A DNA stretch of 64,000 bases from NCBI RefSeq assembly GCF_963665995.1, contig NZ_OY762512.1, positions 930,001-994,000 on the forward strand. Direction: 5' to 3'. Origin of the DNA: Pleurocapsa sp. FMAR1. Lineage in GTDB: Bacteria; Cyanobacteriota; Cyanobacteriia; Cyanobacteriales; Xenococcaceae. The notes below the pieces were generated by a model. The model did not search any database, was not told the DNA's origin, and saw only the letters and a list, made by a program, of their open reading frames with translations. Both the position numbers and the translations under genes were made by a program. This document shows, one piece after another, positions 1 to 17,622 of the stretch. Numbering within the stretch: position 1 is the first letter of the stretch; each line of letters opens with the position of its first letter.

Positions 1-133
1 ATCCCACATCTTTATAAAGTTGGCGATCGCGTATCTTCGCCAAAGCTTCCCCCACTCGGTAAAAAATTTCTAGTCCCTGCTTAACAATGTGTTCGAGTTT
101 ATCTAGGTCTTGTTTATCAAAAAGCTTTAAGCT
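1..133 (-). pseudogene. Partial phage/plasmid-type protein, 5' end lost
   Basis: The minus strand is open from a TAG at 134-136 to the window edge and reads ...LDKLEHIVKQGLEIFYRVG then EALAKIRDRQLYKDVG. This resembles the N-terminal region of small phage and plasmid proteins with the pattern (V/I)GxALxxIRDxxLY. No ATG, GTG or TTG lies upstream of the conserved part; the reading frame instead runs into the AGCTTTAAGCTCTAGGC-type repeat DNA. I infer that the start was lost when the repeat moved in. The C-terminal part lies outside the window. The family match is recalled from pattern and is not certain. Confidence 0.4.
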
Positions 134-413
134 CTAGGCTCTAAGCCTTTTAGTTGACTACCTGCGTAGTAGCTTTAAACTGCACAAAGCAAAGCTTTGA
201 GTCGCGCCTAGCGACGCAAGGCGGCTGTACCAAGCCCTGCGCTTCGTGGGTTTAAGACCCCCTTCAAGCAACCGCTTGGTGGTCTTCAATCAGGCGGGGT
301 TTAATACCTTGTCTGATACAGCCCCAAGAGCGAAGCGCGCTTCGCTCTTGGGGCGTAAGCCCCGTGCTTATAGCTTAAGGCTTAAAGCTTATAGCTGGGG
401 CTTCGCCCCTTTA
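134..413. repeat. Intergenic repeat block with 34-bp perfect palindrome
   Basis: No convincing gene is present. The block is made of short repeats: variants of AGCTTTAAGGC/GCTTATAGC, a GCACAAAGCAAAGCTTTGA segment (182-200) that recurs inverted at 2420-2438, and a perfect palindrome at 321-354 whose arms are GCCCCAAGAGCGAAGCG and its complement. The short open frame here is repeat sequence and has no coding character. The composition resembles intergenic repeats of large-genome cyanobacteria. Confidence 0.7.
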
Positions 414-596
414 TTAACCCAGATAATTCTTTTGCGTAGGTAGTAAATAAAAATCTCCAGACTCGGCTACAACATCAGGAGTACCATCGACTGCATATTG
501 CGATCGCCATTTAGCTTCCGCGCGCTCGGCGGTAAAGTTAGTATCGTAATTGGAGTTGATATTTTTATAAATACCAACTCCAAAACGATCACTCAT
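414..596 (-). CDS. Small hypothetical phage-region protein (60 aa)
   Basis: The ATG at 596 opens a 60-codon frame starting MSDRFGVGIYKN and containing AERAEAKWRSQYAVDG, with a balanced amino-acid composition. The AT-rich DNA around it would tend to give low-complexity frames instead. It lies on the same strand as the phage structural genes, between the repeat block and a broken four-helix-bundle gene. I do not recognise the family. It may be an intact small phage gene or the surviving N-terminus of a larger one, since its end abuts the repeat block. Confidence 0.45.
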   Translation of the reverse strand: MSDRFGVGIYKNINSNYDTNFTAERAEAKWRSQYAVDGTPDVVAESGDFYLLPTQKNYLG

Positions 597-621
597 AACT
601 AGGTAGTGAGTAGTGGGTAAA

Positions 622-1000
622 TTATTTTTCTTTTAGTTTTTTTGTTATTGAAACTAATATTTTTATTATTACTTCTATCTCAGAAAACATCTCGGTAAAT
701 TTAGCTCCAGAAGCTAAATTATTTTCAACAATTAATTCAATCCAATGAACGCGCTATGCCGATTGTTTCATTTGCCTCTTTTAAAGCTATTATATATTTT
801 GATAAAAAGTCTTTGTTTGACTGTGCGAATTCTGCCTCGGAACAATTTGCACCTATTGAAGTACCAAAGCGTAAAAACTGTTTTAATAATATTTTACTTG
901 CGTCATTGTAATGTTTTTTATTTAACTCTGTGTAAGCGTTAATTACTCTGTTAGCAAAATTTCTAGTTCTATTTTAAATTGAAATACTATTATTAATCAT
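622..1000 (-). pseudogene. Four-helix-bundle (S23/IVP/Avd-like) protein, broken
   Basis: Read from an ATG at 1000, the minus strand gives MINNSISI, an in-frame TAA, then NRTRNFANRVINAYTELNKK, later FGTSIGANCSEAEFAQS and SKYIIALKEANET. The frame is lost near 741-763 and resumes in another frame as WIELIVENNLASGAKF to a TAA at 622-624. The pattern SGTSIGANxxEAxxAQSxxDFxxKxxIALKEANETxYW is that of the small four-helix-bundle family (23S rRNA intervening-sequence proteins, structurally related to DGR accessory protein Avd). The ~126-codon span fits a full family member. One stop plus one frameshift or short insertion makes it a pseudogene. Confidence 0.75.
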
Positions 1001-1058
1001 GAAAAAAATTGAACGTCGTAACTCAATTTTACCAGTGGCAAGTAGTATTTTTTGCTAC

Positions 1059-1919
1059 TTACTTTGTCGGTGTTTCAATCGCTAAATCTGTAGTTGGAAT
1101 ATCAGGTTCACCATCAAAATAATAAAAGTTTTGAAACTTAGTTATACAGGCTAACTTGGTTTTATTGCATCCTGCGAGCGCCGTCAAGTTATCGCCTACG
1201 GCAATGTTAAATGGTGCTTGTTCAAACAGGATTATTTGTGAACCGACATAAAAGTCAATATCCAGGTGTACACCATTATTTGCCCCACTGGTAAAATATA
1301 AGCGTCCCCGATCCAAGTGTTTATCAGGTAGTCCACCATTAACTGAAAACACGCGCCGATTAACTACGTTAGTTACAGCTAAAAGGTGCGTGAAGTTGGT
1401 TAAATCTTTGGTACAGACATCATCACCTAGGTGCGCCCTACAGGTCTTACCAGTAGTTGTGCCGACATTATTCTCTAGTAAAGATAAGTTGCTTTTGACT
1501 TTGATTTCGTAACCTAAATTATTGCTCGTAAAATCAGCTAAATATCCCGTGGGTAACTCTATATGCTTGGGGGGATTTAAACTAAAAGAAGAAGGTAAAT
1601 TTGTATAGTCCACAATAAAACGCCGTACTTGAGCCTTGGCATAGATACCACTTTGTAAGTCAACTTTAGATATCACCGCCACATCTAAAATACCTTTTAA
1701 ATTCTGACTGTCCAATCTTTCTAACCCCTCACTTACCTGGTCTGCGGTAGAGTCAAAACCTGTAAAACTTTGGTAAGTTACCCCGCCGATCGCGATCATT
1801 TGGTCAAAACCCGTAAAGCCAAGCTGCGCTCCATCGGTGCGCGTAATTAACCAGCACCAGCAAAGAGTTAGAGTTTTTTTAGTTATCGCACTGGTTGAGA
1901 CAGGATCTAGAATTAGCAT
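1059..1919 (-). CDS. Phage DUF2163/BR0599-family protein (GTA gp12-like)
   Basis: This 286-residue protein matches the DUF2163/phage BR0599 pattern. The N-terminus has an LTLCWCWLITRTDGAQLGFT-type segment (family: tLawCWrItRrDG..lGFTdhD) and a TYQSFTGFD segment. The C-terminus has paired Cys motifs, CRAHLGDDVC near residue 160 and GCNKTKLACITKF near 250, followed by the family-typical FYYFDGEPDIP. The family sits at the tail tip or baseplate hub of GTA-like and siphovirus particles, usually close to the tape measure and an NlpC/P60 protein. Those partners would lie to the left, but that DNA holds repeats and broken genes. The start abuts the stop of the upstream regulator gene. No truncation is evident. 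Confidence 0.8.
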   Translation of the reverse strand: MLILDPVSTSAITKKTLTLCWCWLITRTDGAQLGFTGFDQMIAIGGVTYQSFTGFDSTADQVSEGLERLDSQNLKGILDVAVISKVDLQSGIYAKAQVRRFIVDYTNLPSSFSLNPPKHIELPTGYLADFTSNNLGYEIKVKSNLSLLENNVGTTTGKTCRAHLGDDVCTKDLTNFTHLLAVTNVVNRRVFSVNGGLPDKHLDRGRLYFTSGANNGVHLDIDFYVGSQIILFEQAPFNIAVGDNLTALAGCNKTKLACITKFQNFYYFDGEPDIPTTDLAIETPTK

Positions 1920-2273
1920 TTAGAAGCATGAGGTGCGGTCTGGAGCGTGTGTATGAGGTATGAAGTAATGTTTTTCTTCAAACTTCGCGCCTTCAAACTT
2001 CGTACTTAAAGAGCGAAGCTCTGTCAAAGATTCTGGCAAATTATTAAAACTTTGCTTAGTCGCTACTAAAAATCTACGCATCTGAGCGACAGTCATTGTC
2101 GGTTCAGCCTGTCCTTTTTCCCAGTGCCTAATAGTAGAAACCGCCACCCCTATTCTTCTAGCTAAATTCTCTTGAGACAGTCCTACAGATAGTCTTAATT
2201 TTTTAAACGGGATATCAGTTATTTGAACCTTATCTCTAGCAGGGCGCATATTAACTTTAAGTAAACGCTTCAA
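1920..2273 (-). CDS. XRE-family helix-turn-helix regulator
   Basis: A 117-residue protein with a Cro/C1-type helix-turn-helix at about residues 22-70 (FKKLRLSVGLSQENLARRIG followed by VAVSTIRHWEKGQAEPTM). The C-terminal ~45 residues are not recognised. It resembles short cyanobacterial XRE proteins annotated as antitoxin-like or phage regulators. Its position is odd: it is embedded in a tail-gene string, its stop directly abuts the DUF2163 start, and a block of heptamer repeats lies just upstream. No toxin partner is visible. DNA binding is secure from the motif; the target is unknown. Confidence 0.75.
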   Translation of the reverse strand: MKRLLKVNMRPARDKVQITDIPFKKLRLSVGLSQENLARRIGVAVSTIRHWEKGQAEPTMTVAQMRRFLVATKQSFNNLPESLTELRSLSTKFEGAKFEEKHYFIPHTHAPDRTSCF

Positions 2274-2461
2274 CTAAGTTGGCATTAATTGAGCGATCTT
2301 ACCTGGGGGAAAACTCGTAACCTATAACCTATAACCTATAACTTAAATAGTTAACTTGACTGCTGTTAAATTAACCACAGGGCTATCGCCCAGAGCGCGC
2401 AGATCGTCGTAAGACAACTTCAAAGCTTTGCTTTGTGCGGTTATAGCTTGTAGGTTATAGG
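2274..2461. repeat. Heptamer (AACCTAT)n and inverted repeats
   Basis: This gene-free stretch contains AACCTAT tandem heptamers at about 2319-2342, a related GGTTATAG copy near 2440-2461, and TCAAAGCTTTGCTTTGTGC (2420-2438), an exact inverted copy of 182-200. Short tandem heptamers of this kind are known in cyanobacteria as STRR sequences. The block starts exactly where the short tail gene upstream ends, which suggests insertion or rearrangement. Confidence 0.7.
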
Positions 2462-2563
2462 TTAATCACTTGGGACATCATCCCAAACCCGCACCCGCTC
2501 AAAAGTCGAGATCTCCCCAAGCAGACTGGTTAGCCGATTGATTATTTCCTGCCTAGTTGTCAT
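2462..2563 (-). pseudogene. Truncated phage tail-terminator-like gene (33 codons)
   Basis: The ATG at 2563 overlaps the TGA of the upstream gene (ATGA), the usual sign of translational coupling in phage operons. The product starts MTTRQEIINRLTSLLGEI and ends in VRVWDDVPSD. The N-terminus MTTRxxII..L...L..I plus an RxWDDVP motif resembles ~140-residue phage tail completion/terminator-like proteins, which continue with an EQPALF-type segment. Here the frame stops at TAA 2462-2464, exactly at the edge of a repeat block, and no continuation is seen in the next 190 bp. I infer a gene cut by repeat insertion. Confidence 0.5.
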
Positions 2564-2961
2564 TGGGATTGGGTACTGGGTAGCTTCAATTCAAAATCAG
2601 AGTCGGCAACAGCAAGTTCTTTCCAGTACCCAGGAAAAAATAAGTTAGGTATGATTTTTTTTCCTTTGTTTTGGGCGATCGCTATTTTTATAGTCTCTAA
2701 ATCGTTATTGTCGATTATGCCCGCCTCTCTAAATGGTTTGAGAGCATTGACCAGTTTAACAGTACTAGCTTTTTTGCTAATCGGAAATTCATCGTCGTCT
2801 GGCATTCTTAAGTACCAATACCCACTCACAGGATGCTGTTCTACGGGGCAATAATATCTAGATACGTCATTTGGATCGGGATTAGGTCTTGATAACTGAT
2901 AAAACAAAGCAGAAATTTGATAACCAAACTCCTCAGACAACACAGGGATATTAATCATCAC
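2560..2961 (-). CDS. Hypothetical phage protein (133 aa)
   Basis: A 133-residue soluble protein of unrecognised family, with segments such as YYCPVEQHPVSGYWYLRMPD and IIPNLFFPGYWKELAVADS. Two methionines begin the frame; the first overlaps the TGA of the upstream LamG-like gene (ATGA), so translation is probably coupled. Its own TGA overlaps the ATG of the truncated tail-terminator-like gene. Position between fibre-like and tail genes suggests a minor tail or chaperone role, which is inference only. Confidence 0.65.
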   Translation of the reverse strand: MMINIPVLSEEFGYQISALFYQLSRPNPDPNDVSRYYCPVEQHPVSGYWYLRMPDDDEFPISKKASTVKLVNALKPFREAGIIDNNDLETIKIAIAQNKGKKIIPNLFFPGYWKELAVADSDFELKLPSTQSQ

Positions 2962-3788
2962 AAATAGTAATCAATTAAATTTTGGTTGATATTAGATGTA
3001 GTTAAATTATCTATGACATCTGAAAATATTAATAACTCCGAATAAGTACCTTGCCATCCACGGTCTGGAAAATATCTGTCTTTACTAATTCGATCTGCCA
3101 ACAAATTACCTGTTGTGTTAATTGAAAATACAAATGAGTTTTCAGGTATTTTTGTGTTGGCAGCCACATTAGAATTGTTAAGTTTTATAGTTCCATTTGT
3201 TATAAAAGGAGAACAATATTGTGTGTTAAAAAATACACCAGAACTTCCAGCATGAAAATCATAGTTTGTGTCACTACCCAATAAATAAGCCAAAACTTGG
3301 TTAGCCGTGCTGGAATATTCAAGTTTAAAAAAAAGAGTTCTAATATTACTTATGTCATTAAATTCAAAAGAGTTAGAACCATTGTCATCAAATAATAAAG
3401 CAGGTTTATTACTACTTAAATCAAGTTTGGGTTGATACTGAATATTAGGCTGAATAGCATGATTATTATTATCAGATTGGTCATACCATTTGACGACATA
3501 ACCAGTACTAGCGCCTAAAAAAGCATCAATGCTCTCGCTATCTAAGTATCCGTTCAAAAAGCCAAAATCTTGCTCTAAATTATCGCTCTCACGCCTCAGC
3601 CTAAGACAGAAACCAGTATAAGCCGTGCTTAATTTGCGTATAGAGTACGCAATTGAAGCTATGGGAACTTCATCTAAAAGTAATTTAATAGAATCTGCTA
3701 CGGAATAAACTAAATCATTACCTAAATGTATCTTTTTTATCGTCTCAGAACCTAGACAAAGCTTGTAGTTGTTATTTAGCAAAACCAT
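2958..3788 (-). CDS. Phage tail/fibre protein, arabinofuranosidase B-like lectin fold
   Basis: About 276 residues from the ATG at 3788. An upstream ATG at 3842 would overlap the previous gene, so the downstream start MVLLNNNYKLCLGS is preferred. The middle carries AYSIRKLSTAYTGFCLRLRR, an FGF..GYLD segment, then VVKWYDQSDNNNHAIQ and a QP segment. This is the recurrent signature of the alpha-L-arabinofuranosidase B catalytic/LamG-like (concanavalin-A fold) domain found in phage and bacterial surface proteins. Catalysis is not claimed; in phages such domains often serve receptor recognition. It lies between the upper-fibre-like gene and the 133-residue protein, with a 4-bp overlap downstream. 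Confidence 0.65.
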   Translation of the reverse strand: MVLLNNNYKLCLGSETIKKIHLGNDLVYSVADSIKLLLDEVPIASIAYSIRKLSTAYTGFCLRLRRESDNLEQDFGFLNGYLDSESIDAFLGASTGYVVKWYDQSDNNNHAIQPNIQYQPKLDLSSNKPALLFDDNGSNSFEFNDISNIRTLFFKLEYSSTANQVLAYLLGSDTNYDFHAGSSGVFFNTQYCSPFITNGTIKLNNSNVAANTKIPENSFVFSINTTGNLLADRISKDRYFPDRGWQGTYSELLIFSDVIDNLTTSNINQNLIDYYL

Positions 3789-3810
3789 ACGCGCGAAAAA
3801 CAACTTCCGT

Positions 3811-4095
3811 TTACTCGTTAATAACGTAGAGCGTAGTAGCACTCTTGGGGGTTATGGCATTATAGTCAGCTTGTGTTAAAACAATCACGTCAGTAACGGT
3901 GCTGTTACTAGAGCCAACTTTACCGTTTACGCTCTCAAAAACTATTGGTGTAACCGTCAATTTAGTTCCTTCTAACTTATGCTTGTGTCGCTCAAACTCA
4001 ATATTAGTCAAATCTATTTGTTCTCCTGCGCCATAAACAACGCCTTGCTTAACAATCGTAAAAGCTGTATTTGCTCTAATTGTGTAAATAGCCAT
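3811..4095 (-). CDS. Small phage baseplate/upper-fibre-like protein
   Basis: A 94-residue protein whose C-terminus, VIVLTQADYNAITPKSATTL followed by YVI, matches the (K/V)VVLTQAEYDAL.P...TLYxI motif that recurs in phage baseplate and tail-fibre proteins. The N-terminal half (MAIYTIRANTAFTIVKQG, GAGEQIDLT) resembles short head-tail or decoration proteins. It overlaps the gpFII-like gene by one base (start at 4095) and lies directly before the lectin-fold protein, fitting a place at the head-tail or tail-tip side of the module. Confidence 0.6.
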   Translation of the reverse strand: MAIYTIRANTAFTIVKQGVVYGAGEQIDLTNIEFERHKHKLEGTKLTVTPIVFESVNGKVGSSNSTVTDVIVLTQADYNAITPKSATTLYVINE

Positions 4096-4409
4096 TAAAA
4101 GTCTTCTTTGAGAATTAAATTTGTCAACTTGCCATCTTCAATCGGCTGAATACCTTTAATTAAATAGTTCTTGCCTTTGATAATTAAGCGATCGCCCGAT
4201 CGCAAGTCGTGAACGGAGACGGTTTCTACCAAAAAAGTAATTTGCTTTCCTTCGGACACGCCTTGCCCATTAAATATCGGGTCATAGTTGAGGTCAAGTA
4301 TGCCCGATAGCTCTATTAGGGACGAGTTAGTACTGACCACAGTAGCCAAGGTACTAAATTCGTTGTCTATGAAGATAGACAAGTCTTCAGATTCAGAGAT
4401 CCAGCCCAT
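4095..4409 (-). CDS. Head-tail joining protein, lambda gpFII-like
   Basis: A 104-residue protein aligned by eye to lambda gpFII (head-tail attachment, Phage_attach family). Shared features are NYDPIFNGQGVSEGKQITFL (lambda: FDDPENISYAGQGV...), V.V.DLRSGDRLIIKGKNYLI (lambda: LRRGDTLTIGEENFWV), and a closing DG..LI segment. gpFII forms part of the connector that joins filled heads to tails. The gene order portal, protease/capsid, small proteins, FII is that of lambda. The start overlaps the end of the upstream gene by 17 bp. Confidence 0.7.
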   Translation of the reverse strand: MGWISESEDLSIFIDNEFSTLATVVSTNSSLIELSGILDLNYDPIFNGQGVSEGKQITFLVETVSVHDLRSGDRLIIKGKNYLIKGIQPIEDGKLTNLILKEDF

Positions 4410-4737
4410 TGTTTATTTTCTTTTTGCCGAAGGTTGGACTGAGGGGTTGGGGGACTAGGGGGCTGGGGGGCAAGGGAGCAACAGGGGCAAGCTCCTCCAC
4501 TCCTCTGCTCCCCTGCTCCTCCTCTCCACTGCTCTCCATCTCCTGTTGAGCCTGCCACTCGGCAAACTCAGCAGCCACAGCAGATTCGTTTTTCTCAACA
4601 GGAGCGTCACTTTTTTCTACCTTTTCGCCGTGCAGGGAAGCCTGTTCCTCGCTTAACAATATTTTCTTACCTTCGGGGATGTCCACGCCACAATGATTTA
4701 ACGCGCCAGCCTCTCTGTTTATGTACCAGTTTTTCAT
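4393..4737 (-). CDS. Hypothetical phage protein with in-frame repeat insert
   Basis: A 114-residue protein. The N-terminal 40 residues (NHCGVDIPEGKKILLSEEQA) look like short phage head proteins. The C-terminal part from about residue 70 (EEEQGSRGVEE, then PLPPSPLVPQPLSPT) is encoded by a G/C-skewed run of GGGGAGCAGGGGAGCAG-type sequence at about 4437-4545. That is a common cyanobacterial intergenic repeat, which here stays in frame. It lies between a 69-residue gene and the gpFII-like gene, where lambda has gpFI. A role in head maturation is inference. Confidence 0.55.
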   Translation of the reverse strand: MKNWYINREAGALNHCGVDIPEGKKILLSEEQASLHGEKVEKSDAPVEKNESAVAAEFAEWQAQQEMESSGEEEQGSRGVEELAPVAPLPPSPLVPQPLSPTFGKKKINNGLDL

Positions 4738-4947
4738 TTACTTCTCCTTTTTGACGGTGACTGTAGTAATTTTTGGTTGTCGAGACTGATATTGTTCTTC
4801 AGTCTCAATTAAATGCTGATATTTAATTGCTTCAAATACATCTAATTCAACGGTTTCACCCATTTGAAATATTTGTCTTGACTTTTTGCCGTTGACAATT
4901 TTTTCATGGTGCAATGGCAGCGATCGCACGTAATATTTTGTTTTCAT
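4738..4947 (-). CDS. Hypothetical small phage protein (69 aa)
   Basis: A 69-residue basic protein starting MKTKYYVRSLPLHHEKIVNG and ending in KITTVTVKKEK. No family recognised. The stop abuts the start of the next gene (4737) and the gene begins 12 bp after the capsid stop, so it belongs to the head operon. In lambda-like phages this position is held by small head-stabilising proteins; no sequence support exists for that here. Confidence 0.6.
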   Translation of the reverse strand: MKTKYYVRSLPLHHEKIVNGKKSRQIFQMGETVELDVFEAIKYQHLIETEEQYQSRQPKITTVTVKKEK

Positions 4948-4959
4948 TTTTTGTAGTAT

Positions 4960-7116
4960 TTAAGTATTTATAATGTCGGTTGCCACCACAAAATATTCGC
5001 CTCTCGTTAGATTCAAGTCCAGCATTTGCATAGCGCGAATTGAAATAATCGCTTGGTCAAATTGAGAGTAGGGATTAGCCATGAGGTCTAAACCGCTCCA
5101 GATACCCAAAAGGACATTACTAAAGTCGCCAAAGAAGGCAGCCGATAAATTGCTGGCTGTACCTTTAACTAAATTATTAGGAATTTGATTTGAGCATCTA
5201 GCACGGTAACCAGCAATCATGCCCTCGGCACTGTTGTTGCCCATTTGCCAGATCCAAGTTCCCGCACCCGTATCCTGATTTAGTTTGGTTTGCAGCTTGC
5301 CTCTGGTTCTGGCATTAACTACATAGCCAAACGTGCCTTGATTCATGGCGTTGGTCACAGCTAATTCGCTCTGCATAGCAATCACAGCAGCCCAGTCAAG
5401 CTCACCGCCGTTTGCTCCCAGGACAATACTGTTTACCTCTGGGTGGGAAATAATTCCCAATGGTTCTTCACCAGTACCAGAGCCAAAGCCGATGGTGCGG
5501 TCAATCTCCAAAGCGATCGCGCGCATGATCCGATTGCGAGTTAACTGCTCTAGGTCAATAGAACTTTGGACAGTCATCTCGTAAGTCATCTTAGAAATAA
5601 CGGCAATCTTTTTAGGCGAGAGAGTAATCTTATCGAAAGTTCCCTCGTCTTCGGTGATGGTTTGTCCTTCACCAATCCAGTAGGCATTTTGATAGGTAGC
5701 TTCTCTGGGGATTTCAATGTTGCCTTGCAAATCGCGCAGGTAAGTTACCCCCATCGGTAAAAAAGCCGACATATTATATAGCTGCTCGATAAAGCGATCG
5801 CTAAGTAAGTCAGTGCTAATTAAATTACCAGCAGCAACAGGTACACCTGTTTCATAAGGAGCGCGATGAGACAGTCCGTTGCGGAGGTTCCCTCCGTTAT
5901 AGGAACTGTCGAACCCGTTAGGGTAAGACACTAACTGAGACTGATCTAGGTAAAGCTTGCCCTGTGGGGGCTTGCCTATCCTTTGCTCTAAAGCCCTACT
6001 AACCTCAAGCTCTAGCCCACATTTATCGGCAGGAATCAACCCTGCTGCATAACCTACGGCACGGTTAAAGCTGTAGCTTCTGCGTTCGGGGTCGCTCATG
6101 CCTAGGGGCTTTACCCCTGTTGCCACGGGTTCTTGTTTTTGGACTGTTACTTCATCTAAATATTTAGACCTAGCAGCTTCGATTGATAAACCTGCACCTA
6201 TGCTGTGTTTTGCTAGTTCAGGATTACCGTATTTTTGAGCTAGGGCATAAATCCCCTGTACTCGTTCGCGTTCGGTTTTTATTAAGTCGGTTTCGTTTAT
6301 TTCAATTTCGGGCATACGGGTCGCCTCTTTTATCTCTTGGTCTTCCTTACTTGAACGGGGGAGTGGAGCCGTTTCCTCCCCCCAGTTTTCCCTCGAAGTA
6401 GATACAAAGTAACTTCGACCCACCCCCACACTTTGATCGGCTGGCACGGTAACAATAGAAGTCTCAAAAGGAGTCCATTTCTTAACGCGATAGCGATCGT
6501 AATCATCTGCCGATTCAATCAAAACTAATTCCTTGATTTCGTAGCCAATTGAGACGTTGCGAATAATCCCAGATTTAATACTTTGGTAAATCTTTTCTGC
6601 TAAAGCATGAGTATCAAAGGATATTCTGTTGTAAAGCTTTTCCCCTTCAATCCAGGCGTTTTTGATTACGCCAATATAATCATCTCGATTGTGATTAAAC
6701 AATACATTTGCTCCATCGTTAAAGCGAGATAGGTCAATAGAATCACTGCTATGCTCTAACTCTTCGTAGCCAAACCAGCGCAGGTAAGGCGTACTGCTGC
6801 TTACAGATAGTTCAATGGTTCTTTCTTCTGTTACCTCAGCCTTTTGCAGAGGAATAAATCTAGTTTGGTGCTTATTTATGTGTCTATATAATTTATTAGG
6901 CTCTGGATCTATCGGGAAAAAAGCATCTCCTAGATCTTCCATTAATATATTTTTCATAAAGTGCGATCGCGGTTTTAGCTCATCACAATCTAAAGTTCCC
7001 GAAAGCCAAAACCTAAGCTTATTTTTAGAGGCTTTTCTCCGTTCTTGCCAAAAACCCAAATAAATTGCATCTTTTCCGCCGAAGAGGCTATAAGCCATAC
7101 AGGACAAATAATACAA
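4960..7116 (-). CDS. Prohead protease-HK97-type major capsid fusion
   Basis: A 718-residue protein made of two normally separate phage proteins. Residues ~85-235 are an S78 (HK97-type) prohead protease: NHNRDDYIG near 141 supplies the catalytic His and NVSIGYE near 187 the catalytic Ser. Residues ~430-718 are a HK97-fold major capsid protein (GNIEIPREAT, YWIGEGQTITEDEGTF, FGSGTGEEPLGI, closing RGEYFVV). The acidic, Gln-rich stretch between them probably serves as scaffold/propeptide. The ATG at 7116 gives ~50 unremarkable residues; MKNILMEDLGDAF (ATG near 6957) is an alternative start. A hairpin repeat encoding NGGNLRNG lies in frame at 5878-5898. The gene sits directly downstream of the portal gene. 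Confidence 0.88.
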   Translation of the reverse strand: MYYLSCMAYSLFGGKDAIYLGFWQERRKASKNKLRFWLSGTLDCDELKPRSHFMKNILMEDLGDAFFPIDPEPNKLYRHINKHQTRFIPLQKAEVTEERTIELSVSSSTPYLRWFGYEELEHSSDSIDLSRFNDGANVLFNHNRDDYIGVIKNAWIEGEKLYNRISFDTHALAEKIYQSIKSGIIRNVSIGYEIKELVLIESADDYDRYRVKKWTPFETSIVTVPADQSVGVGRSYFVSTSRENWGEETAPLPRSSKEDQEIKEATRMPEIEINETDLIKTERERVQGIYALAQKYGNPELAKHSIGAGLSIEAARSKYLDEVTVQKQEPVATGVKPLGMSDPERRSYSFNRAVGYAAGLIPADKCGLELEVSRALEQRIGKPPQGKLYLDQSQLVSYPNGFDSSYNGGNLRNGLSHRAPYETGVPVAAGNLISTDLLSDRFIEQLYNMSAFLPMGVTYLRDLQGNIEIPREATYQNAYWIGEGQTITEDEGTFDKITLSPKKIAVISKMTYEMTVQSSIDLEQLTRNRIMRAIALEIDRTIGFGSGTGEEPLGIISHPEVNSIVLGANGGELDWAAVIAMQSELAVTNAMNQGTFGYVVNARTRGKLQTKLNQDTGAGTWIWQMGNNSAEGMIAGYRARCSNQIPNNLVKGTASNLSAAFFGDFSNVLLGIWSGLDLMANPYSQFDQAIISIRAMQMLDLNLTRGEYFVVATDIINT

Positions 7117-7135
7117 GGCGCATAAGCATTTATGC

Positions 7136-8716
7136 TTAGTGTTCCCAGTTAGTGTTCCCAGGTTTTTGCTCTTCTGACACTGGGTTTATAGCTATCCCAT
7201 CAAAATTAACGGCAATACCGTTTTCTTCCAAAATTTCTCGTTCGCGGGCGATGGTTTTAATGCTCTCTTCAAAATCCTCTCCTTGTTCTGCATAAACTTT
7301 AGTCAGGCTAGTCATGCCCCCAGCCAAGCTTGCCAAAGTAGCCTGTACTTCTTTGTTGGGGTCAACCCAACTCCAACCGCGACACTGCCACTTGATAGCT
7401 GCGTAGCGTTTGGGGCGTAGTTCGTAGTCAGCAAAGTTTAAGACCCCTGAGAGTACTGCCATATCTAGCCAGCCATCAGATTCTGGATTGCCTAATAGGA
7501 TTTCGCGGTTGAAGTTACATACAAACCAAGCCTGCAAAACCTTATAGCGATCGCGTGCGGTGATTAGAGATAACCTGCTGCTTGAATAGTTAGATTTAGA
7601 GTAGTCATTAGATATAGTCTCGTAGCTTGCGCCAATCCCCGCGCCACTGGCTCTTAGCTGTGCTTCGATAAATGCTACTAGGTTAGGATTTGGTCTAGTG
7701 GGGTCAAGTAGGTTGAACTGTTCTCCCTGTGCCTGATAGCGGATTATCCCAGGTTCAAATCTTTCATCGGCGGGCAAAGAACTATTGTCACCTTCTGTTG
7801 GTTCACCCAATAGGTCAGAATCAGGAGTAGTTACAATACCCATTACGCAGGTAGCCAGCTTGGCTGCAAGCTGCTCTGATTCCTCGTAGTCCCCCACGTT
7901 TTTCATCCTGCAAAGAGTGCTATACAGAATCGGCAAGCCTCGAAGCTGGTTAGGGCGATCGCTAAAGTACAGGTGGATAATTTCTGATGCTGGTATACGC
8001 TCTAATTCTCTTGAAATTACTCCACCCCGCCCCTGCCATAAATCCCCTGGATGCTCCTTGTAAAACCAATAGGCTACAGGACGCTGCCAACGGTTGACCT
8101 CGACTCCCATGACTATCTGATTACCTGCCCAAGATTGGTTGTGGTCTTCGGCACACTGATCGGCTTCAATTATCTCTAAAGTAAAGGGAACGGGGGAATT
8201 AGAAAAGCTCTGCTTGACCTTGCGGATAAAAACTTCTCCCGACTCCAAAACCGACCTGAAGGCAAGCTGCTGTATCTCAGGGAAAGTAAGCTGACCTGCG
8301 GTATGACACCACATCTTTTCAGATGCCCAGTCATTCCATGCAGATTCAATCAGATCGTTAACGCGATCGTCATTCAACCCCCCTTCGTCCCCCCTAATAG
8401 GGGGGATGCCTTCGGCAGGGGGGTTCTGTCTTACCTGTGCCTGAAAACCGATACCCTGATAAACAACGTTATCAACTAGCCTGCCAATTACGCCTCTAGC
8501 ATAATCATTATTGCGACACAGATCGCGACTGCGACCCCGCAGGGTAGTTAGGTCACGCCAAATATCGGCGTTAGCAGAGTTTTGGGTAGACAGCCAGTCG
8601 CCATAGTTACGTCCCCGTCTTGCTCCGTCGTATCTACGTTTACTTTGAGTACGATGTTCGATTGAATGCCTTGGGGGAGTGTTCCATAGTTTCAGAGCGA
8701 AGTTGAGCAAACCCAT
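7136..8716 (-). CDS. Phage portal protein, lambda family
   Basis: A 526-residue lambda-family (phage_portal_2) protein, the dodecameric ring through which DNA enters and leaves the head. Family features include LRGRSRDLCRNNDYARGVIG near residue 60, VDNVVYQGIGFQAQ, IIEADQC..., VNRWQRPVAYWFY, HLYFSDRPNQLRGLP, and a C-terminal AWFVCNFNREILL and WQCRGWSWVDPNKE. Length is close to lambda gpB (533). Residues ~98-113 (NPPAEGIPPIRGDEGG) have no counterpart in the family and come from a palindromic repeat. The gene precedes the protease-capsid fusion by 19 bp. Confidence 0.92.
   Translation of the reverse strand: MGLLNFALKLWNTPPRHSIEHRTQSKRRYDGARRGRNYGDWLSTQNSANADIWRDLTTLRGRSRDLCRNNDYARGVIGRLVDNVVYQGIGFQAQVRQNPPAEGIPPIRGDEGGLNDDRVNDLIESAWNDWASEKMWCHTAGQLTFPEIQQLAFRSVLESGEVFIRKVKQSFSNSPVPFTLEIIEADQCAEDHNQSWAGNQIVMGVEVNRWQRPVAYWFYKEHPGDLWQGRGGVISRELERIPASEIIHLYFSDRPNQLRGLPILYSTLCRMKNVGDYEESEQLAAKLATCVMGIVTTPDSDLLGEPTEGDNSSLPADERFEPGIIRYQAQGEQFNLLDPTRPNPNLVAFIEAQLRASGAGIGASYETISNDYSKSNYSSSRLSLITARDRYKVLQAWFVCNFNREILLGNPESDGWLDMAVLSGVLNFADYELRPKRYAAIKWQCRGWSWVDPNKEVQATLASLAGGMTSLTKVYAEQGEDFEESIKTIAREREILEENGIAVNFDGIAINPVSEEQKPGNTNWEH
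8378..8425. repeat. Palindromic CCCCCC...GGGGGG repeat in frame in portal gene
   Basis: The DNA has CCCCCCTAATAGGGGGG flanked by further runs (AACCCCCCTTCG and CAGGGGGGTT), closely like the intergenic CCCCCCTTATTAAGGGGGG at about 8759-8778. Within the portal gene it adds about 16 residues and keeps the frame. Confidence 0.7.
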
Positions 8717-8806
8717 ATATAACTACCGTTGATAACTGTAGTTAGAGTTCCCCCAATCCCCCCTTATTAAGGGGGGCTAGGGGGGATTGAGAATAGGATA
8801 GTTGAA

Positions 8807-9136
8807 TTGGTTTTTTGTCTTTGGTCTGAATTACCAACAGGTTTTAAAAAACTTGGTCTACAGGTCAACGTAACGGAAAATGGCGAATCAATAATAATTT
8901 ACAACGGTCACCAACAATATGGGTTAACCGATATCGATCCACCTACAAAAGCCGTCATGATTTGTGCTGCTCTCTCTGGCTCATTCAGAATTGGCTTTTA
9001 TTTTCCTCCGCGAAGTGGAAAGAATTATCTAAGAGCGGAAACTGACCCCAACATTCCGTCCGCCAATAGAAGATTTGTTTTTAAGTTTAGCTATGCGATT
9101 TCTCAAATATTTCTGACGCTCGTAAAGGCTGGCTAA
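8807..9136 (+). CDS. Possible small protein opposite the phage operon
   Basis: A 109-codon frame with a TTG start on the plus strand, in the 312-bp gap between the portal gene and the gpW-position gene; its last 108 bp are antisense to the latter. The non-overlapping part (LQVNVTENGESIIIYNGHQQ, ALSGSFRIGFYFPP) has gene-like codon use, while the overlapping part does not need to be coding. No family recognised. It may be a small accessory gene, a fragment, or chance. Confidence 0.28.
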   Translation: MVFCLWSELPTGFKKLGLQVNVTENGESIIIYNGHQQYGLTDIDPPTKAVMICAALSGSFRIGFYFPPRSGKNYLRAETDPNIPSANRRFVFKFSYAISQIFLTLVKAG

Positions 9137-9637: not shown

Positions 9638-11545
9638 CTAACCTCGCCTTCTTTTTCTTGTCCTGCTCCGATTAACGTTCGCGCCCTCTTTTTTTGGTTC
9701 GGAGCTTTTGCCATTAACATCTGCGTTATTTTGAGGCGCGGAAATATTCTCAGGCTGTTGAGTCTCTAAATTCTTTTTGATCGTATTCCAGTTTACTCGA
9801 CTAACTCCGCAAAGGTGAGCAGCAGCTAAAGCGTAAACGGAACAATCTAACGCCTCGTTACGAACTCCTGCTAGTACTTGCCAAACTAGATAAGGTCTGC
9901 CATTTTTATGCTTTGTTACCTGCACCTCGCTACAAAATCCCTCGTACCAGTTTGTATCTAAGTTATTGGCAAAGTTTAAATACTTAGCTCCTGGTGTTTC
10001 TATTTGCGACCTGCTGTATAGGGTTTCTTTAGCCAAATCCACGCCGATTTTATAGAGCTTGATAGCCGCCTTTATCTTCTCCCCGCGATAGTTCACCTGC
10101 TGAAGCGTGGGAATTGACACCAGTGGTTTGTCTCCAGATACACCTTTAATGGCAAACCAATGAGATGCCTTAAACTTACGTACCCAGTGATAGACTTCTT
10201 GAGTTAAATATCCAGAGTCAACGCAAGTGGCTCTAACCCTTAATTCGCCACCCAATACGTGAGCATAGTTTTGAGAAGTCAGATGATAAAGCTGTTCCCA
10301 CACATCGCTAGAGAGCGGATCGCCCATTATTTTCTCATAGCGAACTACATAAGCCTCCTCCCCGCGTCCCCAACCCCAAATGGCAACCTCAAGGCGATCG
10401 GCTTGTACATCTACTCCAGCAGTTAGCATCAAGCATCCATTTGGTACAGTACCAGTAGAATAATTTGATTGTAGCCCGCGATCGCGTAACTTCTGCCAGT
10501 TTAATCTTTCCCCTGCCACGCGTTCAAAAGGCAGTCCTAGAGTGGCGTTCCAGAATACCTGTAGCTTTTGGTGGTCATCTTTACTGCTCTCGTAATCTAG
10601 GCATAAATCAATCCAGCCGTTCCAGGGAGAATAAAAGCGATTGATATGAAAACCAATATGCCTGGGGTCTTTTGCTTTGGCTGTGGCTTGCCATTGCCCA
10701 CTACGCAACATTTGTGCCTTGTCTTTTTCGGCTATGGGAGCATTACAGCTTTGACAGATATAGTAGACTCCTCCTAAAGGGTCAGCATCACTCGTGTCTT
10801 TACCCGCATACTGAAACCTGTCCCAAATCAAATGCTGACGATGCCCACAGTGAGGGCAGGGGACAAAATATCTGCGTTTATCCGATACGTTCCACTCATC
10901 CTCAATTCGCGAATTCTCTTTGATACTGGGAGTGCTTACTAGAAATACCAGCCAGTTCCAGAATGTCTCTGTCCGTTGAATCGCTAGCTTAACTGGGTCG
11001 CCTTCTTTTCCTGCCGATGCTGGATACTTATCAATCTCATCGCCAAAATAAGCACGGATGCTCATTGATGCCAGGGAGCTAGGAGAATTAGCACCAGCCA
11101 AGCGTAGAAATCCTCCTGCAAACATCTTCATCAAAATGGTGGAAGTGGCATTTCTTGACTTTTGAACTACCTTTTTAGCGACTGGCTTAACGTTAACTAT
11201 CGCACTAGCTAACTTCTCCTTGCTAAACATCTCCGTCATAGCCGTAGTCGGGTGAGTCATCATCATCGAGCAAGGGTCGAGGTCAATCAGATAGCAGATA
11301 ATCATCAGCAAAATGATTGTCTTGCCTATCTGTGCGCTACACATCAAAGTTACCTTTTGTACGCGGGGTTCACAGACGGCATCTAAGATACCCTCTTGAT
11401 ATGGCGCACGGGTTACACTCCACTTCCCAGGCTCTGCGGATGTTTCGGGCAATTCAAAATTCTCGACCCCCCATTGGGAAATTAACTGTCTTTTAGGTGG
11501 AGTAAATTCTGTAAAGGCACGATATAAAAGAGATGTAGCTTTCAT
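9638..11545 (-). CDS. Terminase large subunit, GpA family
   Basis: A 635-residue DNA-packaging motor. The N-terminal ATPase has the atypical P-loop LMCSAQIGKT near residue 67, Walker B YFGDEID at ~166-172 and motif III FLVSTPS. A zinc-binding PCPHCGHRQ with a later CQSC follows, then the nuclease domain starting GVDVQADRLEVAIWGWG near 372, with ATCVDSGYLT and EALDCSVYALAAA near the end. This is the complete GpA layout, and the length is close to lambda gpA (641). The C-terminal tail is basic (NRSRTRKRRRG). It works with the Nu1-like small subunit at 13 kb, but two opposite-strand genes separate the pair. Confidence 0.95.
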   Translation of the reverse strand: MKATSLLYRAFTEFTPPKRQLISQWGVENFELPETSAEPGKWSVTRAPYQEGILDAVCEPRVQKVTLMCSAQIGKTIILLMIICYLIDLDPCSMMMTHPTTAMTEMFSKEKLASAIVNVKPVAKKVVQKSRNATSTILMKMFAGGFLRLAGANSPSSLASMSIRAYFGDEIDKYPASAGKEGDPVKLAIQRTETFWNWLVFLVSTPSIKENSRIEDEWNVSDKRRYFVPCPHCGHRQHLIWDRFQYAGKDTSDADPLGGVYYICQSCNAPIAEKDKAQMLRSGQWQATAKAKDPRHIGFHINRFYSPWNGWIDLCLDYESSKDDHQKLQVFWNATLGLPFERVAGERLNWQKLRDRGLQSNYSTGTVPNGCLMLTAGVDVQADRLEVAIWGWGRGEEAYVVRYEKIMGDPLSSDVWEQLYHLTSQNYAHVLGGELRVRATCVDSGYLTQEVYHWVRKFKASHWFAIKGVSGDKPLVSIPTLQQVNYRGEKIKAAIKLYKIGVDLAKETLYSRSQIETPGAKYLNFANNLDTNWYEGFCSEVQVTKHKNGRPYLVWQVLAGVRNEALDCSVYALAAAHLCGVSRVNWNTIKKNLETQQPENISAPQNNADVNGKSSEPKKEGANVNRSRTRKRRRG

Positions 11546-11635: not shown

Positions 11636-11680
11636 ATCGGCGCAAGGCAGAACGTAGCTGAGCGTATCGAGTCTAAGCAA
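11636..11680 (+). repeat. Pentanucleotide-phased array, block A
   Basis: Nine consecutive 5-nt units (ATCGG, CGCAA, GGCAG, AACGT, AGCTG, AGCGT, ATCGA, GTCTA, AGCAA) all have C as third base. The block ends 21 bp before the ATG of the plus-strand phage gene. The same unit structure occurs in the larger array downstream of that gene. Confidence 0.6.
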
Positions 11681-11701
11681 TTAATAATAGTGTATGGGTA
11701 A

Positions 11702-12295
11702 ATGGCAAAAAAAATTGAGTTAGAAATTGAATCGTTGGGTACTTACTCTCAAAATAAGCCAGTTAGCGTCGAAAAGAACAAAAAAGAATCGCACGATGAC
11801 TATGAACAGAGAACCTGGATGTACAGAATGCACTGGGACGATGACGACCGCGTTTTTATTCCCCCAATGGCATTTAAGAACTGTATCTCCGAAGCAGCTA
11901 AATATCTGAGCATAAAAACTTCAGGTAAAGCCACTTTTACCAAGCATTTTAAAGCTGGTGTCTTGATTGTCGATCCTTCAGTTCTTAAAAATCCGCAAAA
12001 AGAACAACCAATTCTCAAAGACTCAGTTAGAGGCGACAGAGTTTTTGTTCCCAGCAACGGCATAGCTGGTGGAGGATCGAGAGTCTGGAAAACTTTTCCC
12101 TGTATCGATGCCTGGAAAACCAGTTTAACGGTGCTAATACTAGACGACATTATTACAGAATCAGTCTTTTTAGAACATATTAATCAGGCTGGTCATTTAA
12201 TCGGTGTCGGTCGCTTTAGACCAATTAACAACGGCTACTATGGCAGGTTTAAGGTCAATAACCACAGTTGGTATGATAGCTTAACTGCTTCTTAG
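11702..12295 (+). CDS. Conserved phage protein, possibly RAMP/Cas7-like
   Basis: A 197-residue protein of a family common in temperate phages as a hypothetical protein. Visible features are a beta-rich start (KIELEIESLGTYSQNKPVSV), a short acidic region WDDDDRVFIPPMAFKNCISE (family pattern: D..G..IP...I...L..AAK), FPCIDAWKTSLTVLILDD (family: RP.F..W...V...), and a C-terminal glycine-rich loop IGVGRFRPINNGYYGRFKV. A small beta/alpha protein ending in a G-rich loop is reminiscent of RAMP-fold RNA-binding proteins such as Cas7, but this is inference. It lies opposite to and between the terminase genes and is bracketed by pentanucleotide-phased DNA, which begins inside its stop codon. Confidence 0.75.
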   Translation: MAKKIELEIESLGTYSQNKPVSVEKNKKESHDDYEQRTWMYRMHWDDDDRVFIPPMAFKNCISEAAKYLSIKTSGKATFTKHFKAGVLIVDPSVLKNPQKEQPILKDSVRGDRVFVPSNGIAGGGSRVWKTFPCIDAWKTSLTVLILDDIITESVFLEHINQAGHLIGVGRFRPINNGYYGRFKVNNHSWYDSLTAS

Positions 12296-12515
12296 CAAAG
12301 CAAAGCCCAGCCTAGCCGAATCCAGCACAGTGAAGCGAAATTTAGCAAAGCGTAGCGAAATTTAGCGAAGCGGAGCGTAGCAGAGTACAGCCAATCAGAT
12401 CTGAACAAGTCGAAGCAATTATTTCAATCTTTTTTGTCTTAGCATAGCAAAGCAAAACTCAGCCAAGCGTGGCAAAACGTAGCATATCCCATCCCATCAA
12501 ACTAATTCAAAGCGA
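12294..12515 (+). repeat. Pentanucleotide-phased AGCNN arrays, blocks B and C
   Basis: From 12294 (inside the TAG of the upstream gene) to 12418 the DNA divides into 25 units of 5 nt; AGC opens 16 of them, A is first in 24, and the third base is a pyrimidine in all 25. A T-rich break (12419-12440) follows, then 15 more units from 12441 to 12515, third base C in 14 and T in 1, running into the ATG of the next gene. Units are degenerate (AGCAA, AGCGT, AGCGA, ATCCC), so simple slippage does not explain the pattern. The 220-bp interval holds no coding frame. Confidence 0.85.
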
Positions 12516-13012
12516 TGAATCCTCTTAAAGTCCTTCCAGAGACATCTTTGCTGGTCAACAAGTTCAAGCAAACTAAAGCAGGAGAAATATTGACCTACGA
12601 AGAGATGAGCAAATGCTTAAACTTTGATATCAAAGATAAAAGGCACATATTTTATTCGGCAGCCAATATAGCCAGAAAAGAGGCAAATATCGAACTTGTT
12701 AACATATCTGGAATTGGCTACAAAAGATTGCCCAACAATCAAATTGCCAAAACTACCCAAGAAAAGTACCAAGAAAAACTTAGAAACGACAACCTAAGCT
12801 ACTGTAGCAAACTCCAAAGCATACAGGTAAAAGATTTAGGCAAGGCAGAATATACTCAATACCTATCTGCTCAAGCTATTTTAGTTGTCAGACAGGCAAT
12901 CTCTGATGATTTTGTTAATAAAAAAATCGAGGCAGCGATCGCCAACGATCCTAATAAAATACTTAAAAGTGCTACTCAAGCAGTAATTGATAATTTGCCT
13001 AGCTTTTATTAG
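12515..13012 (+). CDS. Phage protein with winged-helix-like N-terminus
   Basis: A 165-residue protein. Residues ~15-75 (AGEILTYEEMSKCLNFDIKD, then YSAANIARKEANIELVNISG and GYKRL) match a phage pattern L..G..ISYeeLs...g.d.....r..l.sA..I.r.e.gi.f..v.g.GykRL, which looks like a winged-helix DNA/RNA-binding domain. The C-terminal half is helical (YLSAQAILVVRQAISDDFVN) and unrecognised. The ATG is joined directly to the pentanucleotide array. The 3' end overlaps the stop of the terminase small subunit gene by 4 bp, tail to tail. With the preceding gene it forms a plus-strand pair. Confidence 0.7.
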   Translation: MNPLKVLPETSLLVNKFKQTKAGEILTYEEMSKCLNFDIKDKRHIFYSAANIARKEANIELVNISGIGYKRLPNNQIAKTTQEKYQEKLRNDNLSYCSKLQSIQVKDLGKAEYTQYLSAQAILVVRQAISDDFVNKKIEAAIANDPNKILKSATQAVIDNLPSFY

Positions 13013-13476
13013 TCTTCTCCCCCCAATTCAACCAACGCCTCATTAATGACTTGTGCAAGCCTTGCCTGTATATCTTCGGGCTTATCCATACCAGACAATT
13101 CTAAGGCTAATTTAGCAGGAAGATTTATAAACTTTGCCTTAGTATTAGCGATCGCATTTTTCCACAAGTCCAGCACTTCTCCTGCATCTACCAACTTACC
13201 TTCTAGCAGATCGGCTTTCATGTTTTTAATTCTGGCGATCGCCCTACGTTCGGCGACCTCCTCTTTTAGTTTCTGCAACTGTAACTCTGCTTTGGGATTA
13301 TCCTTTAATCCCATCACCTCATCTTCTAATTGAGCAATACGATGTCTCAGAGCCGAAATTAACCCATATTTGCCCTCATCTCGCTCCAAATACTCTTGGG
13401 CTGCCCAATTCTCAATCGTGCGGTAGTGTACGCCTACTGCCTTTGCCACTTCTGCTGCCGACAAATATTGCTCCAT
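13009..13476 (-). CDS. Terminase small subunit, Nu1-like
   Basis: About 155 residues from the ATG at 13476, chosen because MEQYLSAAEVAKAVGVHYRT places the helix-turn-helix at the N-terminus as in lambda Nu1; the frame itself extends up to 13527. The HTH (AEVAKAVGVHYRTIENWAAQ) would recognise the packaging site. A long charged helix follows (KAELQLQKLKEEVAERRAIA and RIKNMKADLLEGKLVDAGEV), then a helical dimerisation region with IAGE-like LALELSGM. This is the layout of the Nu1 terminase small subunit family. It marks the start of the head operon but has no lysis or regulatory genes upstream. Confidence 0.82.
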   Translation of the reverse strand: MEQYLSAAEVAKAVGVHYRTIENWAAQEYLERDEGKYGLISALRHRIAQLEDEVMGLKDNPKAELQLQKLKEEVAERRAIARIKNMKADLLEGKLVDAGEVLDLWKNAIANTKAKFINLPAKLALELSGMDKPEDIQARLAQVINEALVELGGED

Positions 13477-13694
13477 GAACACAATATGCCCAAGGTGCGT
13501 TTTGAGTAACAAAGGACTTGTCCGCATGTAGCTTCATACTCAATCATTCACCGCACCACCACAACCCCTCTCAAAATTTTTTGCACCTAAAAACGTACCG
13601 CGGATTTCCCAACTGCATATGTTTAGGTTCAGTAAGTACCTTTTTAATTAGATCGAATATAGATCGCACTCTTTTAATCAATCTTTCAAACTAG

Positions 13695-13768
13695 TGTCAG
13701 AGGGGAGACTTGAACTCCCGACCCCCGGCTTATGAGTCCGATGCTCTAACCAACTGAGCTACTCTGAC
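13695..13768 (-). tRNA. tRNA-Met (CAT), elongator type
   Basis: The minus strand gives a complete cloverleaf: acceptor GTCAGAG/CTCTGAC, D arm GCTCAGTTGGTTAGAGC, anticodon loop CTCATAA (anticodon CAT), variable region GGGTC, T arm GGGAG-TTCAAGT-CTCCC, discriminator A; CCA is not encoded. The anticodon stem shows an A-G mismatch next to the loop. The T-stem, the usual phage attachment site, faces the phage module 167 bp away. Confidence 0.93.
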
Positions 13769-16650: not shown

Positions 16651-17622
16651 ATGAATGGAGAAGAGTTATTATTACTTTACAAACAGGGTAATAAAGATTT
16701 TAGCCGTGCCGATCTGAGTCAAATACAGATTATGCAGGTGGAATTGATTGATATCGATCTAAGTCGAACGGAATTGGACTGGGCAAACTTCAGTGGTGCT
16801 AATCTATCTAGAGGTAATTTCAATCGCGCTAATCTAGCAAATGCTCGCCTGATCAAGGTAAATTTAGCAGGAGCAAGCTTAAACAGTGCTGATTTAACTA
16901 ATGCCGATCTTAGCTGGGCTAATTTAGAAAATACTTCTTTAATTAGAGCCGATTTAAGCAACGCTAATCTTAGTCAATCTTTTTTTCGGGATGCTAATCT
17001 TGCCGATGCAAACTTTAGCAATGCTAATCTCAGCCGAGCTAATCTTGCGGGTGCTAATCTTGCGGGTGCTAATCTTGCGGGTGCAGACCTTACAGGAATA
17101 GACTTAAACGGTGCAAATTTGACTCGTGCAGATTTGAGTGAAGCTAATTTAACCAATGCAGATTTAAGTTATGCCAACTTTAATCGAGCCGACTTAAGCG
17201 GTAGCAACTTAAGACAGTCAAGTTTACAGCAAGCAATCTTAAAGGGAGCGAATTTAAGCTCAACTAACTTACGTAGTGCCATACTTGCTGGGGCAATATT
17301 AAAAGATACTGATGCAAGTAATAGTAGTCTGGCTAGTTTATCTCAATTGAGTTTGGCTACTCTTGAACCAGGCAATAAGACTGATTTAAGTAATGCTAAT
17401 CTCACTGGAGCTAATTTACAAGGCGTAAATCTGCAAAATGCTAACTTTAGATTTGCCTTATTGTTTAAAACTAATTTAGAAAAAGCCAATTTAGAGAATG
17501 CTAGTTTAATCGACGTATATTTACGTGGAGCTAATCTTAGAGGTGCTAACCTAAAAAATAGTGTCCTAAGTGGCATTAATTGGACGGGAACAACTATGCC
17601 TGATGGTACGATTCATCCTTAA
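16651..17622 (+). CDS. Pentapeptide-repeat protein
   Basis: A 323-residue protein that after a short lead (EELLLLYKQGNKDFSRADLS) is almost entirely tandem A(D/N)LxX pentapeptides, e.g. ANLAGANLAGANLAGADLTG and ADLSNANLSQSF, with an interruption near residues 225-245 (LASLSQLSLATLEPGNKTDL). It closes with the common cap TGTTMPDGTIHP. This predicts a right-handed quadrilateral beta-helix. There is no signal peptide, so a cytosolic location is likely. The biological role of this cyanobacterial class is unknown. The antisense frames are shadows of the repeat. Confidence 0.93.
   Translation: MNGEELLLLYKQGNKDFSRADLSQIQIMQVELIDIDLSRTELDWANFSGANLSRGNFNRANLANARLIKVNLAGASLNSADLTNADLSWANLENTSLIRADLSNANLSQSFFRDANLADANFSNANLSRANLAGANLAGANLAGADLTGIDLNGANLTRADLSEANLTNADLSYANFNRADLSGSNLRQSSLQQAILKGANLSSTNLRSAILAGAILKDTDASNSSLASLSQLSLATLEPGNKTDLSNANLTGANLQGVNLQNANFRFALLFKTNLEKANLENASLIDVYLRGANLRGANLKNSVLSGINWTGTTMPDGTIHP

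Follow-up and report, generated by a model that had tools for sequence, protein, structure and literature searches.

What are the five-nucleotide arrays that flank a small phage-type gene in the prophage of an apparent cyanobacterium, and what might their degenerate letters encode? A preliminary description, made from the letters of a 64,000-nt stretch of DNA (the window, that is, the whole stretch analysed here), had divided the non-coding DNA on both sides of a 197-residue gene into consecutive 5-nt units, had proposed that selection for a ligand contacting one base per unit maintains them, and had known no named element of this kind. Here, we confirm the observation, whereas its interpretation is partly supported. 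A named element does exist: the vrRNA of VIPR, a system described in 2026 on bioRxiv (PMC13142463). The features on which the argument depends are as follows.

Array U, 11636 to 11680, plus strand: nine pentads by 5-phase counts, a putative vrRNA upstream of vipr
vipr, 11702 to 12295, plus strand: gene for a 197-residue RAMP/Cas7-like protein, recognised by phrog_4652, a PDB profile match and its fold
Array D1, 12294 to 12418, plus strand: 25 pentads by 5-phase counts and shuffles, one or more putative vrRNAs between vipr and vap
Array D2, 12441 to 12515, plus strand: 15 pentads, a putative vrRNA that runs up to the vap start codon
vap-like accessory gene, 12515 to 13012, plus strand: 165 residues, phrog_5926 at E 8e-5
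Terminase large subunit (GpA), 9638 to 11545, minus strand: prophage context
Terminase small subunit, 13009 to 13527, minus strand: prophage context

The phase of the arrays is rigid. In the 40 downstream units, position 3 is always a pyrimidine (C in 34, T in six) and position 1 is A in 37, and all nine units of U carry C at the third position. The remaining positions had been said to vary freely, which holds for positions 4 and 5 and fails for position 2, occupied by G in 26 of the 40 downstream units; with position 2 mostly G, the free letters are confined to positions 4-5. In U these read, in order, GG AA AG GT TG GT GA TA AA. D2 may begin already at 12421 with its phase unchanged. Across the window, 5-phased information peaks at starts 12286-12346 and at 12441, reaching 4.76 bits at 12296 against a mean of 1.00 (sd 0.46), with runners-up near 16.0 kb (3.7 bits) and 37.5 kb (3.6 bits). 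Scored as phased AGC over 25 units, the stretch from 12294 matches at 62/75 positions, whereas 200 shuffled versions of the window gave 39 at most, and neighbouring DNA lacks an equal signal; likewise, the longest run with a pyrimidine at each fifth base is 28, as opposed to at most 22 in shuffles. A minus-strand stretch at about 16951-17075 also exceeds the shuffles (46/75), and its score stems from a pentapeptide-repeat gene (Pfam PF00805, 16651-17622), whose 15-nt coding repeat produces a strong 5-phase and which thus serves as a control. A 16-nt tandem repeat, CGAGGTGGCGAGGTGA, occurs at 41895-41952 (3.4 copies, 100% matches) in a phase unrelated to that of the arrays.

Short repeats are common in cyanobacteria, and the arrays might accordingly be read as a dispersed repeat or as a product of slippage. 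When the 5.43-Mb genome was searched for five successive AGCNN units, allowing one mismatch, five forward matches were obtained, all inside the D1 and D2 blocks, and none on the reverse strand or with a reversed control pattern, and a tandem-repeat finder detected the arrays as fragments only. Together, the uniqueness of the arrays in 5.43 Mb at this stringency and the fragmentary repeat calls lead us to reject a slippage or dispersed repeat; the same architecture recurs with other triplets in relatives as remote as a Nitrospirota MAG and E. coli phages, and we give this explanation practically no weight. The earlier preference for selection over slippage is thereby upheld. The weakest block is U, which is absent from the whole-genome matches; in its favour are its phase and position and the occurrence of upstream arrays in several relatives. 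A search against Rfam found no family at the arrays up to E 1, and tRNA alone over the whole 64-kb window.

The identity of the intervening gene is the second line of evidence. Its 197-residue product matches phrog_4652 at E 1.9e-17, a family with one matching gene in the SUSP1 genome (2.1e-98). As a single sequence it reaches PDB entry 36pp_D, “SUSP1 Vipr protein”, at E 0.0021, and a profile built from 23 window-type proteins reaches the same entry at E 1e-8, as its sole match in the PDB up to E 1. An AlphaFold2 model (pLDDT 93.6, pTM 0.86) was compared by Foldseek, and all 50 matches listed were type III or type VII CRISPR proteins, beginning at E 1.5e-7, with TM-scores by query of 0.46-0.58 and a large rmsd of 5.4-9.0. 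Near the C-terminus, the Vipr family of the window carries a glycine-rich loop, G-I/V-G-x-x-R-P-x-N-G-G-x-x-G-R-F. Neither the vipr nor the vap product has a match in Pfam at 0.001 or in PADLOC at 0.1. On the basis of phrog_4652, the family profile to 36pp_D and the modelled fold, the 197-residue gene is a Vipr. Among described phages, such as L012, L013, and L015, the gene is widespread: 134 phage records match the tootiki Vipr, and most of 40 among the matches listed are annotated as hypothetical protein.

The neighbouring 165-residue gene is related to vap1. In tootiki (1.4e-75) and LESphi2 (4.1e-31), too, vipr has a phrog_5926 gene as its neighbour, and in SUSP1 the corresponding place is occupied by an equally long gene. 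The vipr-neighbour proteins of two relatives, L007 and L011, have no PHROG match, though both align with the 165-residue protein; a profile of three vap-type proteins finds matching ORFs in 21 of 27 loci, a count that includes L007 and L011, which supplied sequences to the profile. The AlphaFold2 model of the 165-residue protein (pLDDT 89.9) bears a weak likeness to winged-helix proteins (best E 0.14), and a DNA-binding domain of this kind at its N-terminus is possible, judging from the model. The surroundings appear to be a prophage, as portal, capsid, and head-tail joining genes lie around the cassette and, like both terminase genes, on the minus strand. The VIPR cassette itself (11636-13012) sits on the opposite strand with a terminase gene on either side, from which we infer a cargo (moron)-like insertion. 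The host is taken to be a cyanobacterium from the plasmid records bearing genes of relatives and from the style of the sequence. Just past the small terminase gene lies a tRNA-Met (CAT, 13694-13768), and a search for an attachment-site repeat of this region found no repeated 14-mer in 49 kb to its left (genome positions 890001-930000 and window positions 1-9000).

If the arrays belong to this gene, they should accompany it elsewhere. Twenty-seven relatives were fetched, of which 25 are viral contigs and two are genome contigs, belonging to Iningainema tapete, a cyanobacterium (56% identity), and to a Nitrospirota MAG. In each of the 27 loci, 5-phased arrays lie close to the gene (from -700 to +900 bases), which bears out the suggested link between arrays and flanking phage genes, and no fetched homologous locus lacks them; the maximal array scores near the gene are 4.99-7.27, compared with 3.20-4.40 for the maximum of three shuffles per locus, and the weakest are those of L018 (4.99) and L024 (5.10). 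Many loci have additional arrays at a greater distance; in L010 and L026 the strongest array is one of these. The independent cases are fewer than 27, because the array of L019 is the same as that of Iningainema and L033-L036 are near-copies of one another. As a positive control, a 5-phase scan of SUSP1 recovered one array upstream and three downstream, which is the published layout (PMC13142463), and the same kind of scan gave GGY as its triplet.

Throughout the 28 rows of this comparison, a pyrimidine occupies the third position in 80-100% of units and the first two letters differ, yielding the triplets AGY (window), GAY, CAY, CGY, CTY, GTY, and GGY, as well as mixed AAY/GAY in L018. When these triplets are mapped onto the protein tree, ten changes suffice, compared with 15.7 for shuffled labels (0/200 as low), and the triplet thus follows the Vipr lineage, a result to which the near-copies contribute. 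In the same tree, from which P. fulva is absent, the window Vipr falls outside the SUSP1 clade, in a group of 24 rows that is split from SUSP1, tootiki, LESphi2, and Trine (100/100); it pairs with Iningainema at a support of 85/92 (not starred). GGY is found in two rows inside this group, L020 and L022, and in four phage rows outside it (branch 100/100). Among 100 genomes of relatives, from genus to order, a vipr-type gene was found in the window's own genome only. Further observations concern particular loci: in L028 (4577-5170), successive GAY/NN array segments follow vipr and three of them end in GACAA-GACCA-GACAT. Some of the tootiki arrays have been annotated, but just as repeat_region. 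In L008-L010, CGC/NN arrays extend over long stretches, in L008 up to an SNF2-type helicase gene (4291-5799), and these three are perhaps one of the helicase-bearing VIPR types.

These properties fit VIPR as published. Vipr is a minimal RAMP protein encoded chiefly by proviruses and viruses, its vrRNA consists of 9-16 YNNGG pentads (that is, GGY/NN) whose NN letters pair with DNA, the locus includes a vap accessory gene, and the triplet may be GGY or “a related consensus” (PMC13142463). A literature search retrieved no publication on VIPR besides this one. Considering arrays, Vipr, and accessory gene together, we are highly confident that the window locus is a member of VIPR. The proposal of the preliminary description that a repeating protein protomer with a 5-nt footprint sits on the RNA fits VIPR well by analogy, whereas its idea of a single base contacted in every pentad gives way to a three-base scaffold followed by two guide bases, and positions 4-5, earlier regarded as merely free, are best read as a guide.

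A related possibility is that the arrays are a binding scaffold or an autoregulatory RNA site of Vipr devoid of any guide function, as might be imagined from the fact that they adjoin both genes, and that those of L007 and L011 stop immediately ahead of the gene starts. However, a conserved triplet accompanied by hypervariable letters 4-5 is also what the experimentally tested guides show (PMC13142463), and the candidate targets described below obey the skip rule, which makes this explanation very improbable. Returning to the guide reading, the ends of the arrays resemble each other:

3' end of U, 11671 to 11683, plus strand: GTCTAAGCAATTA, shared with the other arrays, read by eye
3' end of D1, 12409 to 12421, plus strand: GTCGAAGCAATTA, one difference from U over 13 nt
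3' end of D2, 12506 to 12518, plus strand: TTCAAAGCGATGA, of looser likeness

Judging from these sequences, the shared end is possibly a common tail of the RNAs, a conserved 3' tail being one of the features of VIPR. Moreover, D1 exceeds the published range of 9-16 units and may contain two overlapping vrRNAs.

What, then, could these guides recognise? In the SUSP1 and P. fulva systems, one DNA base is skipped between the paired dinucleotides (PMC13142463). A first DNA set of 371 kb, made up of the flanking chromosome, VIPR loci, and prophage-like contigs from relatives, was searched with U, D1, and D2 at skips of 0-3. Of these 12 guide-by-skip combinations, D1 at skip 1 is the sole one to stand out, with a score of 17.0, which shuffled guides reached in 0/300, 9/3303, and 2/288 cases in three runs. 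Since twelve combinations were tried, this excess is modest when taken alone; the scores of the other eleven were reached by at least 29/387 shuffles. The match, of 20/22 letters, lies in a tyrosine-integrase gene on a contig of the same genus (L054) and is due to the following part of D1:

D1 units 11-21, 12344 to 12398, plus strand: candidate guide AA GT GA TT GA GG GT AG AC CA AG

The DNA matched by these units encodes K-(L/V)-E-(I/L)-E-G-V-S-T-H-S, a motif of the integrase, and the one base skipped in each codon is always its third position. The D1 core falls on HxxR, which we take to be the catalytic motif of the tyrosine integrase. Among homologous integrases, the same register gives 20/22 letters at 15 of 52 loci (two being the same site), homologues which are non-independent evidence, and the remaining loci give 12-19/22 for the D1 core, some of them outside any integrase motif. 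At skips 0, 2, and 3, nothing appeared at the listing threshold in 30 integrase loci. In a second DNA set of 385 kb, comprising 22 loci of which most were selected because of their integrases, the D1 score at skip 1 was reached by 1/535 shuffles anywhere and by 0/535 at integrases, while its scores at skips 0, 2, and 3 were reached by at least 93/228. D1 units 1-10 and D2 have no target beyond shuffles in the DNA scanned. Within the 64-kb window, U, D1, and D2 at skips 0-2 have none beyond 60 shuffles, and at skip 3 each array finds itself only. Separately, D1 and D2 at skip 0 in L048 slightly exceeded 12 shuffles each, an effect that vanished with more of them (77/307 and 29/387 reach).

The second candidate arises from U. 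In the first set it gave nothing beyond shuffles (155/400 reach). In the second set, its best match is at skip 1, where units 3-9 agree in 14/14 letters with a site 36-62 nt ahead of the start codon of an integrase gene (G023:C268); this score of 14.0 was reached by 7/700 shuffles anywhere and by 0/700 within integrase neighbourhoods, a zone of 1.7% of the DNA that was defined after the D1 match. For its other skips (0, 2, and 3), the observed scores are reached by 17/250 shuffles or more. The match of U is good at only this one integrase locus, and 20 others with enough upstream DNA give 9-13/18 at best; comparable sites elsewhere by plain count are one of 15/18 (L055) and six of 14/18. Two of the matching units sit in the shared array end and hence may not be guide. 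By eye, a semi-conserved element (AG-TTTgAG...TTA...AT) is seen upstream of the integrase in L059, L061, L062, L065, L067, and L110, which is perhaps a promoter or recombination core, and in L110 the match of U lies at this element.

Relatives of the integrase were found in 213 plasmid records, 83 from Piscirickettsia and others from Nostoc, Synechocystis, Planktothrix, and more, and the ten best are cyanobacterial plasmids of 11.5-38.6 kb with two from Chondrocystis foremost. The elements bearing it are described here as plasmid-type or phage-like because the first target contig, L054, has a terminase gene too. Better-matching integrases were absent from the loci returned by a DNA search of 196 genomes, and among viral contigs 57 stretches fit the pattern for the integrase, of which none encodes a relative.

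Could a genuine VIPR locus have matched these integrases by chance, its real targets being unsampled phages and the locus itself perhaps an eroded remnant? No guide has a perfect target (the best are 20/22 for the D1 core and 15/18 for U), U is short, degenerate, and without a match in the first set, neither D2 nor units 1-10 of D1 have a target, and several tests were made. Yet both best matches, of U and of D1, arise at the published 1-nt skip only, they fall on the same gene family, and that of D1 is codon-framed; as for erosion, vipr and vap are both open and the arrays are in phase. We thus consider a chance match unlikely, albeit with appreciable weight, and regard targeting of the integrase by U and D1 as somewhat the more probable, as far as sequence matches can tell.

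By analogy with the SUSP1 and P. fulva experiments, we infer RNA expression, RNP assembly, DNA binding, and repression at the window locus. The arrays would be transcribed into vrRNAs, which would provide at least three guides, and Vipr protomers would line up along each vrRNA, one per pentad, gripping AGY and presenting NN. These dinucleotides would then pair with double-stranded DNA, skipping every third base, and the bound complex would, together with Vap, block transcription of the target. U would be directed to DNA just upstream of the integrase gene, and D1 to the coding sequence of the catalytic motif, in an integrase family of plasmid-type or phage-like elements from the same genus and family as the host. 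Two guides toward one integrase family would imply a conflict between mobile elements. Since D1 lies on a conserved protein motif and the skip coincides with third positions, changes at codon third positions would be hidden from this guide.

Combining both aspects, we tentatively propose an “NNY” family of VIPR codes, in which the first two letters diversify with Vipr while the pyrimidine stays fixed, along with a prophage that aims two guides at one integrase gene of a rival element, a proposal that as a whole is slightly more apt to fail than to hold. If the NNY reading is true, co-resident VIPRs could be orthogonal, and if the skipped base indeed ignores codon third positions, one guide could cover many integrase variants. 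Irrespective of this, a VIPR is placed in the prophage of an apparent cyanobacterium, in a lineage whose scaffold triplet does not have a fixed GG. The locus also offers a test case for the skip code beyond the characterised clade, as it comes with a concrete predicted target and two seemingly convergent guides.

Compared with known systems, the window locus is closest in organisation to VIPR type II as represented by SUSP1 and the P. fulva prophage. It shares with them a Vipr of phrog_4652 and a neighbour of the phrog_5926 family, pentad arrays on both sides with a pyrimidine as the third letter and two free letters, and candidate targets that follow the 1-nt skip. It differs, however, in its triplet (AGY instead of GGY), in its Vipr, whose BLASTP identity with the tootiki homologue is only 24% (169 columns), in the location of D1 and D2 between vipr and the accessory gene, and in its candidate targets, which are integrases of plasmid-type elements. 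Likewise, the CGC/NN loci L008-L010 have a Vipr 41, 40, and 41% identical to that of the window and arrays that flank the gene, but in L008 the SNF2/helicase gene follows vipr directly, whereas the window has none at that place. Finally, the window Vipr has the RAMP fold and the glycine-rich loop in common with the backbone proteins of class 1 CRISPR (Csm3 of type III and Cas7 of type VII), whose guides are disrupted at every sixth position (PMC13142463), in contrast to the 5-nt phase with three non-pairing bases seen here, where no repeat-spacer array was noticed. VIPR has been proposed as an ancestor of the CRISPR RAMP proteins (PMC13142463), and the present locus, spotted from raw sequence alone, would work like such a simple ancestor.
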